From positions 5,449,874 through 5,513,873 of the forward strand of contig CP011806.1 of assembly GCA_001664505.1 (NCBI GenBank): a DNA stretch of 64,000 nucleotides, in the 5' to 3' direction. Under the pieces are notes generated by a model, which saw only the letters and a list, made by a program, of their open reading frames with translations, searched no databases and was not told where the DNA came from. Shown one piece after another: positions 46,482-51,909 of the stretch; positions within the stretch are counted from its first letter, which is position 1, and every line of letters begins with the position of its first letter. A program made the translations under genes and the position numbers. Source of the DNA: Acidobacteria bacterium Mor1 (GTDB lineage: Bacteria; Acidobacteriota; Polarisedimenticolia; Polarisedimenticolales; Polarisedimenticolaceae).

Positions 46482-49400
46482 ATGAAACGCCTGTTGCTGG
46501 CCCTGTGTCTGATCGCCCTGATCGGAGCCCCGGCGGTCGAAGCCAAGAAGAAAAAGGACAAGGCCGACGAGCCGGAGAGCAAGTTCAAGTCGACGACGTT
46601 CAGCGGCTTGTCGCTGCGTTTGATCGGCCCCGCCCTGACCTCGGGCCGCATCGGCGACATCGCGGTCAACCCCGAGGACCACAGCGAGTGGTTCGTCGCG
46701 GTGGCCTCCGGGGGCGTCTGGCGCACTCGCAACGCCGGCACGACCTTCACGCCGGTGTTCGACTCGCAAGGGTCGTACTCCATCGGTTGCGTGACCATCG
46801 ATCCCAACAATCCCAACGTGATCTGGGTCGGGACCGGCGAGAACAACAGCCAACGCAGCGTGGGTTACGGGGACGGCGTCTACAAGTCGGTGGACGGCGG
46901 ATCCAGCTGGACCCACATGGGTCTCAAGGACTCCCAACACATCGGCAAGATCCTGGTCGACCCGCGGGATTCGAACGTGGTCTACGTGGCGGCCCAGGGG
47001 CCGCTCTGGAACGCCGGCGGCGATCGCGGGCTCTACAAGACCACCGACGGCGGCGCCACCTGGGACAAGGTGCTGGAGATCAGCGAGAACACCGGTGTCA
47101 CTGACATCGTCCTCGACTCCCGCAACCCCGACGTGATCCTCGCAGCGTCGTACCAGCGCCGCCGACGGGTCTGGACGCTGATCAACGGCGGACCGGAAGG
47201 GGGCCTGCACCGCTCGACCGACGGCGGGGCGACCTGGAACAAGGTCAAGGGCATGCCCGGTGTCGATATCGGTCGCATCGGCCTGACTCAGTCGCCGGCC
47301 CAGCCGGACATCTACTACGCCATCGTCGAGGCGGAAGGGGACAAGGGAGGCTTTTTCCGTTCCACCGACGGCGGTGTGTCGTGGAAGAAGCGCAGCAGCT
47401 ACATGAGTAGCAGTCCGCAGTACTACAACGAGATCGTGGCCGACCCTGAGGAGCCGGGCCGTGTCTACTCCCTGGACACCTGGATGCAGGTGACCGATGA
47501 CGGCGGGAAGACCTTCCGCCGGCTCGGCGGCAACTACCGGCACGTCGACGACCACGCGCTCTGGATCGATCCCGGCGACACCCGCCACATGATCGTCGGT
47601 TGCGACGGCGGCATCTACGAGACCTGGGACCGGGGAGCGACCTGGCACTACAAGCCGAACCTGCCGGTGACCCAGTTCTACAAGATCGCCGTGGACAACG
47701 ACGCGCCGTTCTACAACGTCTACGGCGGCACTCAGGACAACTTCACCCTCGGTGGACCCTCCCGTACTGCCAGCGCCAACGGCATTTCCAACAGCGACTG
47801 GTTCGTGACCGTCGGCGGCGACGGCTTCGAGGCGGCGGTGGATCCCGAGGATCCGGACATCGTCTACTCCCAGTGGCAGTACGGAAACCTCGTGCGCTAC
47901 GACCGCAGCAGCGGCGAACTGTTGGATATCAAGCCCCAACCCGAGCCGGGGGATGACCCGCTGCGTTGGAACTGGGACTCGGCGCTGCTGATCAGCCCGC
48001 ACAAGGCATCGCGGATCTACTTCGCGGCCCAGCGCGTGTTCCAGAGCGAAAACCGCGGGGAATCCTGGATTCCGATCAGCGACGATCTGACCCGGGCGTT
48101 GGACCGCAACGCCCTCGAGGTGATGGGGCGTATCCAGAAGGTCGACGCGGTATCGAAGAACCGCTCGACCTCGCCCTACGGCAACATCGTGGCGCTGTCG
48201 GAGTCGCCGCTGGAAGAAGGACTGCTCTACGCCGGTACCGACGACGGTTTGATCCAGGTGCGTGAGGCCGGCGGCGGCTGGCGTAAAGTCGATGGCATCT
48301 CCGGTGTGCCGGAGCTTTCGTATGTCTCCGACGTCGAGGCGTCGGCCCATGACGTCGACACCGTCTACGCCGTGTTCCAGAACTTCAAGAGCGGCGATTT
48401 CAAGCCGTACCTCTATCGCAGCCGGGACCGGGGCAAGAGCTGGTCGTCGATCAGCAGCAACCTGCCCGAGCGCGGTTCCGTCTACACCATCGTCGAAGAC
48501 CATGAGCGCCCCGACCTGTTGTTTGCCGGCACCGAGTTCGGACTGTTCTTCAGCGTCGACCGGGGGAAGCGTTGGACCCAGCTCAAGGGCAGCTTCCCCA
48601 CGGTGGCGGTGCGGGATCTGGAGATCCAGCGCCGGGAGAGCGACCTGGTGGTCGGCACCTTCGGCCGCGGCATCTACATCCTCGACGACTATTCGCCGCT
48701 GCGGCAGGTGACCAGCGCCATGCTCGACCAGGAGGCCACCCTGTTCGAGCCGCGGCGGGCCTGGATGTACGTGCCGTCGGTGCCGCTGGGCATCGGTGGC
48801 AAGTCCTTCCAGGGGGATTCCCACTACACCGTCGACAACCCCTTCGGCGCGACCTTCACCTACTACATGGCCGATGCGCTGCAGAGCCGCGAGGACAAGC
48901 GCAAGAAGGCGGAGAAGAAGGCCGAGGAGGCGGGTGAGGTCTACAGCTACCCCAGTTGGGACGACCTGCGGGCCGAGGATCGGGAGCAGCACCCAGTGGT
49001 CTACCTCACCGTGCGGGACGAGGACGGCAACGTGATCCGGCGGATCAAGGGCAAGACCGGCGCCGGCTTCCAGCGGGTGACCTGGGATCTCCGCTGGCCG
49101 GCTTCGGATCCCGTGGATCTCTCGGGCCCCGGGCTGTTCAATCCCTTCGCCAGCTCCGCCATGGGACCCCTGGCCGTTCCCGGGGTGTACAGCGTGTCGC
49201 TGTCCAAACGGGTCGACGGCGTGACCACCGACCTGGGCGAGCCCCAGACCTTCCGCACCGAGCCGCTGGGCACCGCCAAGCTGGCGGCCAAGGACCGTGA
49301 CGCTCTGCTGGCATTCCAGCGCAAGGTGGCGCGGTTGCAGCGTGCGGTGCTCGGGGCCAACCGGGTGCGCGGGCAGATGGGTACCCGGATTCGCCACCTG

Positions 49401-49766
49401 AACCAGGCCGTGCTCGACACCCCCGGCGCGGACATGGCGATGCTTGATCGCCTGGCCACCCTGCAGAAGGATCTCGACGCGTTGACCGTGCAGATGGTCG
49501 GCGATCGCAGCCTGGCCCGCCGCTCGGTACCGACCGAGCCGGGGATCCTACAGCGGGTCTCCCGGATCATCGGGGGACAGTGGACCGCGACCTCGGCGCC
49601 AACCGGTACCAACCGCGATCAGTACCGCTTCGCCTCGGAAGCCTTCGCTCCGGCGCTGGCGGAGCTGAAGCGGTTGGATGGAGCGCTGTCGGCGGTGGAG
49701 CGGGAGCTGGAAGGCCTGGGAGCCCCGTGGACGCCTGGCCGGATCCCGACCTGGCAGCCTGAGTAG
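46482..49766 (+). CDS. sortilin/VPS10-type exported beta-propeller protein
   Basis: The ATG at 46482 follows AGAGGAGGAG, giving 1094 residues. A signal peptide (about 1-21, ends PAVEA) and a Lys-rich linker are followed by BNR/Asp-box blades: VWRTRNAGTTFTPVFDS, VYKSVDGGSSWTHMGL, LYKTTDGGATWDKVLE, LHRSTDGGATWNKVKG, FFRSTDGGVSWKKRSS, YRSRDRGKSWSSISSN. The propeller runs to about 760. A C-terminal beta-rich domain has HPVVYLTVRDEDGNVIRRI and QRVTWDLRWPASDP, and a helical segment follows (about 960-1090). These proteins are widespread in Acidobacteriota-type genomes and are loosely annotated as glycosyl hydrolases; no catalytic pair is evident here. Confidence 0.9.
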   Translation: MKRLLLALCLIALIGAPAVEAKKKKDKADEPESKFKSTTFSGLSLRLIGPALTSGRIGDIAVNPEDHSEWFVAVASGGVWRTRNAGTTFTPVFDSQGSYSIGCVTIDPNNPNVIWVGTGENNSQRSVGYGDGVYKSVDGGSSWTHMGLKDSQHIGKILVDPRDSNVVYVAAQGPLWNAGGDRGLYKTTDGGATWDKVLEISENTGVTDIVLDSRNPDVILAASYQRRRRVWTLINGGPEGGLHRSTDGGATWNKVKGMPGVDIGRIGLTQSPAQPDIYYAIVEAEGDKGGFFRSTDGGVSWKKRSSYMSSSPQYYNEIVADPEEPGRVYSLDTWMQVTDDGGKTFRRLGGNYRHVDDHALWIDPGDTRHMIVGCDGGIYETWDRGATWHYKPNLPVTQFYKIAVDNDAPFYNVYGGTQDNFTLGGPSRTASANGISNSDWFVTVGGDGFEAAVDPEDPDIVYSQWQYGNLVRYDRSSGELLDIKPQPEPGDDPLRWNWDSALLISPHKASRIYFAAQRVFQSENRGESWIPISDDLTRALDRNALEVMGRIQKVDAVSKNRSTSPYGNIVALSESPLEEGLLYAGTDDGLIQVREAGGGWRKVDGISGVPELSYVSDVEASAHDVDTVYAVFQNFKSGDFKPYLYRSRDRGKSWSSISSNLPERGSVYTIVEDHERPDLLFAGTEFGLFFSVDRGKRWTQLKGSFPTVAVRDLEIQRRESDLVVGTFGRGIYILDDYSPLRQVTSAMLDQEATLFEPRRAWMYVPSVPLGIGGKSFQGDSHYTVDNPFGATFTYYMADALQSREDKRKKAEKKAEEAGEVYSYPSWDDLRAEDREQHPVVYLTVRDEDGNVIRRIKGKTGAGFQRVTWDLRWPASDPVDLSGPGLFNPFASSAMGPLAVPGVYSVSLSKRVDGVTTDLGEPQTFRTEPLGTAKLAAKDRDALLAFQRKVARLQRAVLGANRVRGQMGTRIRHLNQAVLDTPGADMAMLDRLATLQKDLDALTVQMVGDRSLARRSVPTEPGILQRVSRIIGGQWTATSAPTGTNRDQYRFASEAFAPALAELKRLDGALSAVERELEGLGAPWTPGRIPTWQPE

Positions 49767-49855: not shown

Positions 49856-50746
49856 TCAGGGCTGTTGCGCGATCAGTTTGATCGCGCCGCGAACGTGGTA
49901 ACGAAGCTCCATTTCGTCGTCGTAGGGCATGAGCTGGACCGGCTCCCATTGACCGCCGGCGCCCATGCGGCTCCATCCCGCCTCATCGTCTGAGTCGATC
50001 CAGTCGACCCACAGCTTGCCGTTGCTGCTGTGAACCTGCGGCGCGATCGTGCCGTCGTAGCTGGTGACGGTAACGATCTGCGGGACGAAGGTCCCTTCGA
50101 TGTCCTGAGACAGCACGATCTGTCGTGGCGTGGCGCCATAGCCGTAGTCGTGGACTTCATACGCTACGTAGAGATTGCCGTTGTGCATCGTTCCGAATGG
50201 CCGAAGAGAGGCTTCGGTCGGACTCGACACGACATCCGGCACACTCCAGCTCGACAGGTCCTGCGGAGCTACCGAGTGCAGCACCGCGGGCGTGGAGTCG
50301 TCGACCCACCAGAAGAGGTGCACATCGCCTGTGGCCGGATCGATCACCAGCGACGGGTCAAGTTCGTCGAGAGACGAGGAGGCAATGACCGTCGGCGTAG
50401 ACCAGCTTCCATCGTAGGAGCTAAGGACAATATCGTAGCCGCTCGGGGAGTTACTAGCCCAGGCAACGATAGGGGTGTCGGTGGTCGGATGGACCGCGAT
50501 GCTTGGGTATCCATCGCCATTTGCCAGCCCTTGCTCGTTGAGGACCTTGACGCTTGGATGAGTTCGGTACTTTTGCCAAACCAAGCCGAACGGGTCGGAG
50601 TCGCCGTCGATGGCCTCCAGGATGCCTGGTCGTTTGGGGGTGCCTGGCGCTGGGTCGATGACGGAAACCTCTGCCCAGCATGTTAGCGAGAGAGCCAACA
50701 CTATTGGCCCGCACAATCCGCGTCTAAGGTAAGGGGTGAACTTCAT
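49856..50746 (-). CDS. exported beta-propeller-like protein
   Basis: The protein has 296 residues with a signal peptide (about 1-25, GLCGPIVLALSLTCWA). Blade-like repeats follow: SIAVHPTTDTPIVAWASN, LVIDPATGDVHLFWWVDDS, FGTMHNGNLYVAYEVHD and VHSSNGKLWVDWIDSDDE. The pattern resembles sialidase-type propellers, but catalytic Arg and Tyr cannot be assigned. The start overlaps the stop of the XRE-TPR regulator gene by four bases (ATGA), so the two are made together. The function may therefore be linked to that regulator, as product, signal or target; this is inference. Confidence 0.75.
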   Translation of the reverse strand: MKFTPYLRRGLCGPIVLALSLTCWAEVSVIDPAPGTPKRPGILEAIDGDSDPFGLVWQKYRTHPSVKVLNEQGLANGDGYPSIAVHPTTDTPIVAWASNSPSGYDIVLSSYDGSWSTPTVIASSSLDELDPSLVIDPATGDVHLFWWVDDSTPAVLHSVAPQDLSSWSVPDVVSSPTEASLRPFGTMHNGNLYVAYEVHDYGYGATPRQIVLSQDIEGTFVPQIVTVTSYDGTIAPQVHSSNGKLWVDWIDSDDEAGWSRMGAGGQWEPVQLMPYDDEMELRYHVRGAIKLIAQQP

Positions 50747-51909
50747 GCCTTGACTCCACTCAGGTGCGCCCGGAAAATCTCGGCTTCCTCCGAGTCACCA
50801 ACCCTTCGAAGGAGGGTCTTGAGCGTCTTTTCGTTGGAGACTACGCCAGCACGGTCGTTTCGCGCTTCAGAGACTCGCCAGAGATAGAAGCAGTTCTGGA
50901 AGACAACTGAGATGTACTCATGCGGTCTCGCAATCTGATTCGAGCGAATGCAGTACGCCTCCGTGTTCTCCAGTTGGTTCTGTTTGAAGCTGATTAGGCC
51001 GAGGTTAGCTAGGGCGATCGCGTCGAGCCGATCGAATCCTCGATCCTTGTTCGCTGAAAGAACTCTCTCAAGAGCCCGCTTTGCTTCGTCAAGGCGGTCA
51101 GCTTGAATGAGTGCGCTGGAATGACTGATTCTGAGGTGGGCAAGGTTGAAAGACTCGGAAGCTCCCTCCAAGGCGGTGAAGGCCTCGTCGAAAACCGAGC
51201 ACGCCTCGTCGGCCCTGCCGAGTGCACTCAGAACCTCTCCATGAACGGAGAACAAAGTGATCGCCGTGCCGGACGGTAGGTCGTCTAGTTCGCGGGATTC
51301 TTTTCGCGCTTGCTCGATAGCCATTAGCGCGATGGTGAAACGACCGGTGCGTCGGCAGCATCTCGCGAGACATTCAAGAGCTTGAACGCGCTGAATCTGT
51401 GAGAGTTCTTTGTTGTTCAGCAGGTATTCGAACTCTTCCTTTGCGGCGCTGTACCTCTCGAGGCCCAGAAGGCAGTACGCCCTTCGGAGTCTCCAGCCGA
51501 GGAGCGTTTCCAGCGTTGCCTGCTCAGCACAGCGATCCATCAGATATTCATAGAGTCCGACGGCCTCGCGATAGTGGCCAGCGCGTCGCGCTTTTCGCGC
51601 TTCTTCTTCGGCCTCTTCCCGGCTCTTGCCTTGGATGGTTGCCGACAACATGCCGTGCTTCAGATCGATTTCGAAGCGTTCGGCCATCGAAGACACCGGG
51701 ACACCGTAGATCTCGCTCAGGGCGAACATCCGTGGGAACGTCGGTACGGCCTGGCCGTTCTCGATGCGAGAAAGATGAGATTTGGTGATGCGTTCCGGGT
51801 ATCCGGTCGACATCTCCTCGACCGCATCGAGGGACAGTCGGCGGGATTCGCGGACTGAGCGGAGATAGCGGCCGAATCTCCGATTCTCAATGCTGAATGC
51901 CTTTTGCAC
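50743..51909 (-). CDS. XRE-family regulator with C-terminal TPR domain
   Basis: A GTG at 51909, after GGGGGGAGGGGC, gives 388 residues; a frame running on to 52038 has no site and fits the family poorly. The HTH (about 8-68) has FGRYLRSVRESRRLSLDAVE and KSHLSRIENGQAVPTFPRMF. The remainder is TPR-like (about 100-385): YREAVGLYEYLMDRCAEQ, QALECLARCCRRTGRFTIAL and EAKRALERVLSANKD. XRE-TPR layouts are known in Rgg/PlcR-type peptide-sensing regulators of Gram-positive bacteria; no signal peptide gene of that kind is seen here. It is translationally coupled to an exported propeller gene and divergent from a cytochrome c lipoprotein. Confidence 0.83.
   Translation of the reverse strand: MQKAFSIENRRFGRYLRSVRESRRLSLDAVEEMSTGYPERITKSHLSRIENGQAVPTFPRMFALSEIYGVPVSSMAERFEIDLKHGMLSATIQGKSREEAEEEARKARRAGHYREAVGLYEYLMDRCAEQATLETLLGWRLRRAYCLLGLERYSAAKEEFEYLLNNKELSQIQRVQALECLARCCRRTGRFTIALMAIEQARKESRELDDLPSGTAITLFSVHGEVLSALGRADEACSVFDEAFTALEGASESFNLAHLRISHSSALIQADRLDEAKRALERVLSANKDRGFDRLDAIALANLGLISFKQNQLENTEAYCIRSNQIARPHEYISVVFQNCFYLWRVSEARNDRAGVVSNEKTLKTLLRRVGDSEEAEIFRAHLSGVKA

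Follow-up and report, generated by a model that had tools for sequence, protein, structure and literature searches.

Organization of the locus

The window, the whole 64,000-nucleotide stretch of the Acidobacteria bacterium Mor1 genome that was analysed, carries on its minus strand a gene for an XRE-TPR regulator, P0001, which runs directly into a gene for an exported propeller protein, P0002 (Table 1). A sequence-only reading of this DNA had reported that the stop codon of the regulator and the start codon of the exported protein share ATGA, which is what is seen at 50746-50743 of the minus strand; with the genes overlapping in this way, its claim that both proteins come from one message is likely to be right. 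The GGAG that probably serves the second gene lies 7 nt 5' of the P0002 ATG. The regulator matches the Pfam families HTH_31 (E 3.5e-9) and TPR_12 (E 5.5e-9).

Table 1. Features of the regulator and exported-protein genes, in positions of the window
Feature	Position	Strand	Basis
XRE-TPR regulator P0001, 388 aa, GTG start	50743..51909	-	ORF reading, Pfam, genome search, AlphaFold2 model
HTH domain, regulator residues 11-76	51682..51879	-	Pfam HTH_31/HTH_3
TPR superhelix, regulator residues 97-384	50758..51621	-	AlphaFold2 helices and VIA-align rows
GGAG, probable Shine-Dalgarno of exported gene, within regulator gene	50754..50757	-	sequence reading
ATGA overlap, regulator stop / exported-protein start	50743..50746	-	sequence reading
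Exported propeller protein P0002, 296 aa, ATG start	49856..50746	-	ORF reading, genome search, AlphaFold2 model
Sec-type signal peptide, P0002 residues 1-25, probable cleavage A/EVS	50672..50746	-	inspection
Candidate ligand motif region IDGDSDPFGLVW, P0002 residues 46-57, pLDDT <50	50576..50611	-	motif comparison
Beta-propeller, P0002 residues 80-276	49919..50509	-	AlphaFold2 model and structure matches
C-terminal helical end, conserved, P0002 residues 277-293	49868..49918	-	alignment, model, pattern count

The N-terminus of P0002, like those of its relatives, has a hydrophobic core by a simple hydropathy rule. At the position of the probable cleavage site, [AGS][ED][VIL][SAGV] is present in 28/28 relatives that carry the motif described below in their leader, a set chosen partly by such a pattern. 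The conserved C-terminal end has an R..I...V-like pattern that is found in 27/28 of these leader-motif proteins and 16/20 other propeller partners, and in 0/40 partners with the motif in their tail.

Scans of the surrounding DNA returned little: an operator search upstream of the pair gave one 8-base inverted repeat, the promoter scan and the terminator scan each returned a single site, on the opposite strand and near shuffle level, Rfam at gathering scores had no match in the whole window, and PADLOC gave weak matches only (HTH_VI, PDC-M16B, RmrA). A horizontal origin of the pair was considered and rejected; its GC is lower than that of the flanks (0.585 vs 0.666), as is that of L053 (0.591 vs 0.653), and for most of the other units in the genome the difference is smaller. 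The convergent neighbour of the pair (46482-49766) encodes an exported protein of 1094 aa, which from its sequence resembles a BNR/sortilin-type propeller.

Structural models of the two proteins

The AlphaFold2 model of the regulator, made from six aligned sequences (mean pLDDT 85.6), consists of an HTH domain and a TPR superhelix. Its first row in Foldseek is PlcR-PapR7-DNA (3u3w, E 1.5e-6, TM 0.43), followed by LGN, RapI and NprR-NprX, with TM 0.60 for NprR and Rap, and VIA-align over about residues 93-388 gives Z 24.5 for LGN and 23.1 for both NprR and Rap. The model thus fits a peptide-binding TPR receptor, but as LGN-type TPR proteins match it as well, the fold does not single out the RRNPP receptors (the PlcR, NprR and Rap structures among these matches).

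The model of P0002, from five sequences, has a pLDDT of 69.5, with residues 1-79 below 50 and most of the propeller above 70. The earlier description of this protein as propeller-like is borne out, in that the modelled domain resembles the propellers of Photorhabdus lectins, nearest by VIA-align (Z 18.6), and then those of sialidases. It has this fold in common with the sialidase and PLL-lectin propellers and differs from them in being shorter; a Pfam search of P0002 gave nothing above cut-off, with no sialidase match even at E 1. The FRIP motif, which contains RIP, is a sialidase motif, and RIP was not found in the P0002 sequence. An enzyme role for the propeller is unlikely.

Distribution of the gene pair

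A check for paralogous pairs in the same genome had been proposed by the sequence-only reading, and several were found when the genome (5.985 Mb, one contig) was searched and the neighbourhoods were read. Eight regulators of comparable length and seven propeller partners are present; their strong profile scores arise by construction, because those proteins form alignments A2 (regulators) and A1 (propellers). A propeller gene lies next to six of the eight regulators, downstream of five and upstream of one (L020). Downstream of L015 is a 70-aa exported-type ORF, L018 has neither a propeller nor a short exported-type partner, and one propeller gene (L019) stands alone. Beside one of the paralogous pairs, in a lower-GC stretch that may be an island, there is a gene (L017, 6975-8240) for a pentapeptide-repeat-like protein, the C-terminus of which looks TIR-like by eye.

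Weaker members of the family include L052 and L053, which have short partners, L053 being without a recognisable HTH, and L051 (2665-5709), in which HTH and TPR are split between two genes, with an overlapping gene for an exported protein after them. A three-gene version of this kind (HTH, TPR protein, exported propeller-like protein) was also observed in 13 further genomes (L202-L214), with the TPR gene visible in 12/13 and the locus cut in L211; it is adjoined by a rhomboid protease gene (PF01694 in all three cases tested) and by a gene that looks, by eye, sigma-factor-like.

The propeller profile has a match in 44/60 genomes, own included, and genome G001, from the same family as the genome of the window, carries the pair. 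The best 80 matches outside the own genome were examined together with the seven own propellers, making 87 exported ORFs, and 77 of these have an upstream regulator match by script (E <1e-5), some of the matches being partial at contig ends and without an HTH there. Two more (L080, L114), missed by the scripted rule, were counted as paired by inspection, contig ends truncate six, and neither L019 nor L020 has a regulator upstream. The proposed check for conservation of the pair in related genomes is thus in its favour, with a regulator match directly upstream of 79/81 uncut propeller genes. Taking the ATG nearest the hydrophobic core as the start, the genes overlap by 4 bases in 26/71 pairs and by 8 bases in 11/71; the alternative count (33/76 and 14/76) is biased because starts were chosen nearest the regulator stop.

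At E up to 1e-45, and with only 6 or 8 candidates per genome scored in such large searches, the regulator profile matches 31/34 genomes of the class, probably Candidatus Polarisedimenticolia, vs 1/263 others in the phylum sample. The sole regulator match outside the class (L215) has no exported ORF by the rule used, and where the propeller profile matches beyond the class, it does so partially and within open frames of at least 498 aa. The pair is a module found across Candidatus Polarisedimenticolia, in several copies per genome.

Partner types

Among 58 regulators with E up to 1e-40 in 15 genomes, one lies at a contig end and 57 are readable downstream. In keeping with the expectation that the regulator should not occur as often without the propeller gene, 41 of the 57 are followed by a propeller-type gene, six by a short exported-type ORF and ten by neither, the hydrophobic ORFs at L140, L145 and L149 having been judged spurious by inspection. 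Two partnerless regulators from two genomes (L145, 3699-4934; L146, 3952-5124) lie directly upstream of a gene that looks, by eye, elongation factor G-like. Exported-type partners other than propellers have 64-149 residues and once 650 residues (an adhesin-like protein), and some of those of 64-134 aa show nothing but the motif by Pfam or inspection.

Loss of the propeller can be followed within one group of regulators, the mraZ-type group A4, which at E up to 1e-70 occurs in 38/41 genomes of the class, gpsA-type paralogues included. A mraZ gene is nearby in 16 of the 21 best A4 loci, the longer loci L101 and L126 being counted. Three of the 20 complete A4 partners (L168, L169 and L175; 113-136 aa) have lost the propeller and kept the signal peptide and the tail; L168 and L169 are mraZ-linked, and L175 has no mraZ in its short flank. 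The tails of the A4 partners carry the motif's P-[DE] in 20/20 and G-P in 18/20. Hypervariability of the propeller, for which a check had been suggested, is only partial: in 36/36 mraZ-type and 10/10 gpsA-type locus pairs divergence is faster in the exported protein than in the regulator, but this does not hold for pairs closely related to that of the window. The propeller's standing as the secreted partner has likewise to be qualified: it is a common partner type, but it is dispensable. As judged from the genes, it is not the propeller that stays constant among the partners; the recurring features are an export signal and a short linear motif.

A short motif common to different partners

The motif, about [DEN][DG]x[DNEST]P[IVFLWP][GP], lies in the leader of P0002-like proteins and in the C-terminal tail of the mraZ- and gpsA-type partners, and is also found in short partners; in a third partner set it apparently occupies a mid-loop site, by inspection only. 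Motif discovery on whole proteins locked onto a blade element, DDLDPxIA, and was discarded, and later tests were made on leaders, tails and short partners.

Matrices trained on one position were applied to the others, after truncated proteins or those without a good start (L066, L083, L091, L098, L102, L104, L106) had been dropped. For 12 short partners picked by eye (L163 was left out here and counted in the control comparison), the tail-trained and the leader-trained matrix each scored 7/12 at p <0.05, with combined values of 3e-9 and 2e-10, respectively, such combined p-values being too small, here and below, because orthologues are not independent. At the same threshold the tail matrix transfers to 16/28 leaders and the leader matrix to 11/40 tails, and the copy in P0002 itself has p 0.16 with the tail matrix, which is non-significant alone. 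A crude test of two-site exclusivity was negative (p 0.18, with the pattern in 37/93 control windows) and was set aside.

The comparison with controls used 25 propeller-less regulators (16 of the 15-genome set, four from the own genome and five further) and 381 non-regulator genes. A short exported-type ORF lies downstream of 13/25 vs 29/381 (p 5e-8), and a short ORF with the motif, at a score cut-off of 8 set after the short partners had been seen, downstream of 9/25 vs 7/381 (p 2e-8), six of the seven control ORFs belonging to one membrane protein family. Without the mraZ-type loci the motif ORF is present for 6/22 propeller-less regulators (p 2e-5).

Eleven further loci were then available, one of which (L224) is the same place as the earlier L165, leaving ten new regulator loci. 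At five of them the regulator is overlapped by 4 bases by a partner gene, four have no exported ORF and a fifth without one ends at a contig end. The partners comprise a protein of 249 aa that faintly resembles the propellers, proteins of 113 and 134 aa, a P0002-like protein truncated at the contig end, and the 650-aa protein, which matches pAdhesive_15 (25.2 bits, cut-off 23.8) and is without a propeller. The leader matrix, trained earlier, finds the motif in 5/5 (p 0.018, 0.0004, 0.003, 0.0002 and 0.03; combined ~5e-9); both matrices were tried, and the tail matrix on the same five gives a weak combined p of 0.003.

Comparison with RRNPP systems

The two-gene unit resembles the peptide-signalling systems of Gram-positive bacteria. 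Excerpts from PMC10075063 describe RRNPP receptors as TPR proteins of 250-500 aa with a direct neighbour at -60 to 400 bp, which encodes a Sec-exported propeptide of 10-100 aa from which the mature peptide is released, re-imported and bound by the TPRs; in excerpts from that source and from PMC9765709, the receptor/propeptide pairs are described for Firmicutes. The length of P0001 lies within the receptor range, it has TPRs by Pfam and model, and an HTH as RRNPP receptors often do, and its exported partner directly adjoins at -4. The analogy with Gram-positive XRE-TPR/peptide pairs drawn by the sequence-only reading is strengthened.

There are also clear differences. The known systems (PlcR-PapR, NprR-NprX, Rap-Phr, AimR-AimP) belong to Firmicutes whereas the present pairs belong to Acidobacteriota, where no paper on an RRNPP-type system was found among the matches listed by a PMC literature search, subscription journals and preprints lying mostly outside its range. 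P0002 is far longer than known propeptides, although some family members have propeptide length (L053, 64 aa; L015, 70 aa; L147, 94 aa), and the partner is often a folded propeller of 200-300 aa and once an adhesin-like protein. The motif is often internal instead of at the extreme C-terminus, and from the genes its processing and import are only conceivable. Receptor length, TPRs and adjacency agree with the RRNPP description and propeptide length does not, and for this reason the window pair is not filed as an RRNPP member. By analogy we would nevertheless lean, on balance, towards its working like an RRNPP system.

Possible roles of the pair

We somewhat favour a reading of these genes in which the pair would be an RRNPP-like receptor and exported ligand in a Gram-negative-type phylum, with the motif as the ligand. 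The motif is the putative ligand because it is common to partners that are otherwise different (propeller, adhesin-like, short protein); that it is short and degenerate weighs against this. A cytoplasmic XRE-TPR transcription factor and an exported ligand protein would be made from the same message, and binding of the motif in the TPR groove would switch the HTH domain. One route, known from RRNPP systems, would be release of the motif outside the cell and its return as an imported peptide; on the other, the regulator might bind the precursor before export and so register how synthesis and secretion are balanced. The motif of P0002 lies in the leader before the propeller, and the propeller might be a carrier or a regulated surface product.

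Should the motif prove to be the ligand, intracellular signalling of the peptide type would reach into a diderm phylum and take in folded proteins as ligand carriers, and the several pairs in a genome would each be a testable channel; the orthologues that have lost the propeller make the ligand question directly testable. More tentatively, the pairs may form a multi-copy intracellular-receptor family of a diderm class, where a movable motif is read by a co-translated XRE-TPR receptor, either re-imported or before export. The movable motif might then be mounted on a folded propeller at the surface, on an adhesin-like protein or on nothing more than a short protein, a suggestion that we advance with the same reserve.

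A local autoregulator is a rather unlikely alternative. The XRE-TPR protein would control its own operon and sense some other cue, the exported protein would be the regulated lectin- or adhesin-like product, and the motif would, with equally low probability, act outside the cytoplasm, for instance in anchoring or in binding a partner. The lectin and sialidase-type propellers that match the P0002 model and the one adhesin-like partner suit this explanation, as does the fact that bacterial operons commonly contain 4-base overlaps. It is harder to reconcile with orthologues that lose the propeller and keep motif and signal peptide, and with the partners of 64-134 aa in which only the motif is seen.

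Sensing of secretion load, in which the regulator binds unexported cytoplasmic precursor and no signal comes back, corresponds to the second of the two routes considered under the receptor and ligand reading; as an explanation by itself it appears unlikely. It draws on the overlapping genes, on the frequent placement of the motif just after the signal peptide or in a free tail, and on having no need of import across two membranes; the tight coupling would, though we give this part equally little credence, put regulator and precursor at one place. Against it, the mraZ-type motif is in the far C-terminal tail, which is made last, and peptide importers are present: oligopeptide-binding proteins (PF00496) occur in 13/13 genomes tested and PTR2 is over cut-off in 10/13, findings that are permissive only for re-import.

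That the motif is a chance or structural feature, resembling DDLDPxIA and carried over from degenerating propellers, is improbable: the blade element did confound the first motif search, but the motif is present in the non-propeller partners of the new loci and in free tails.
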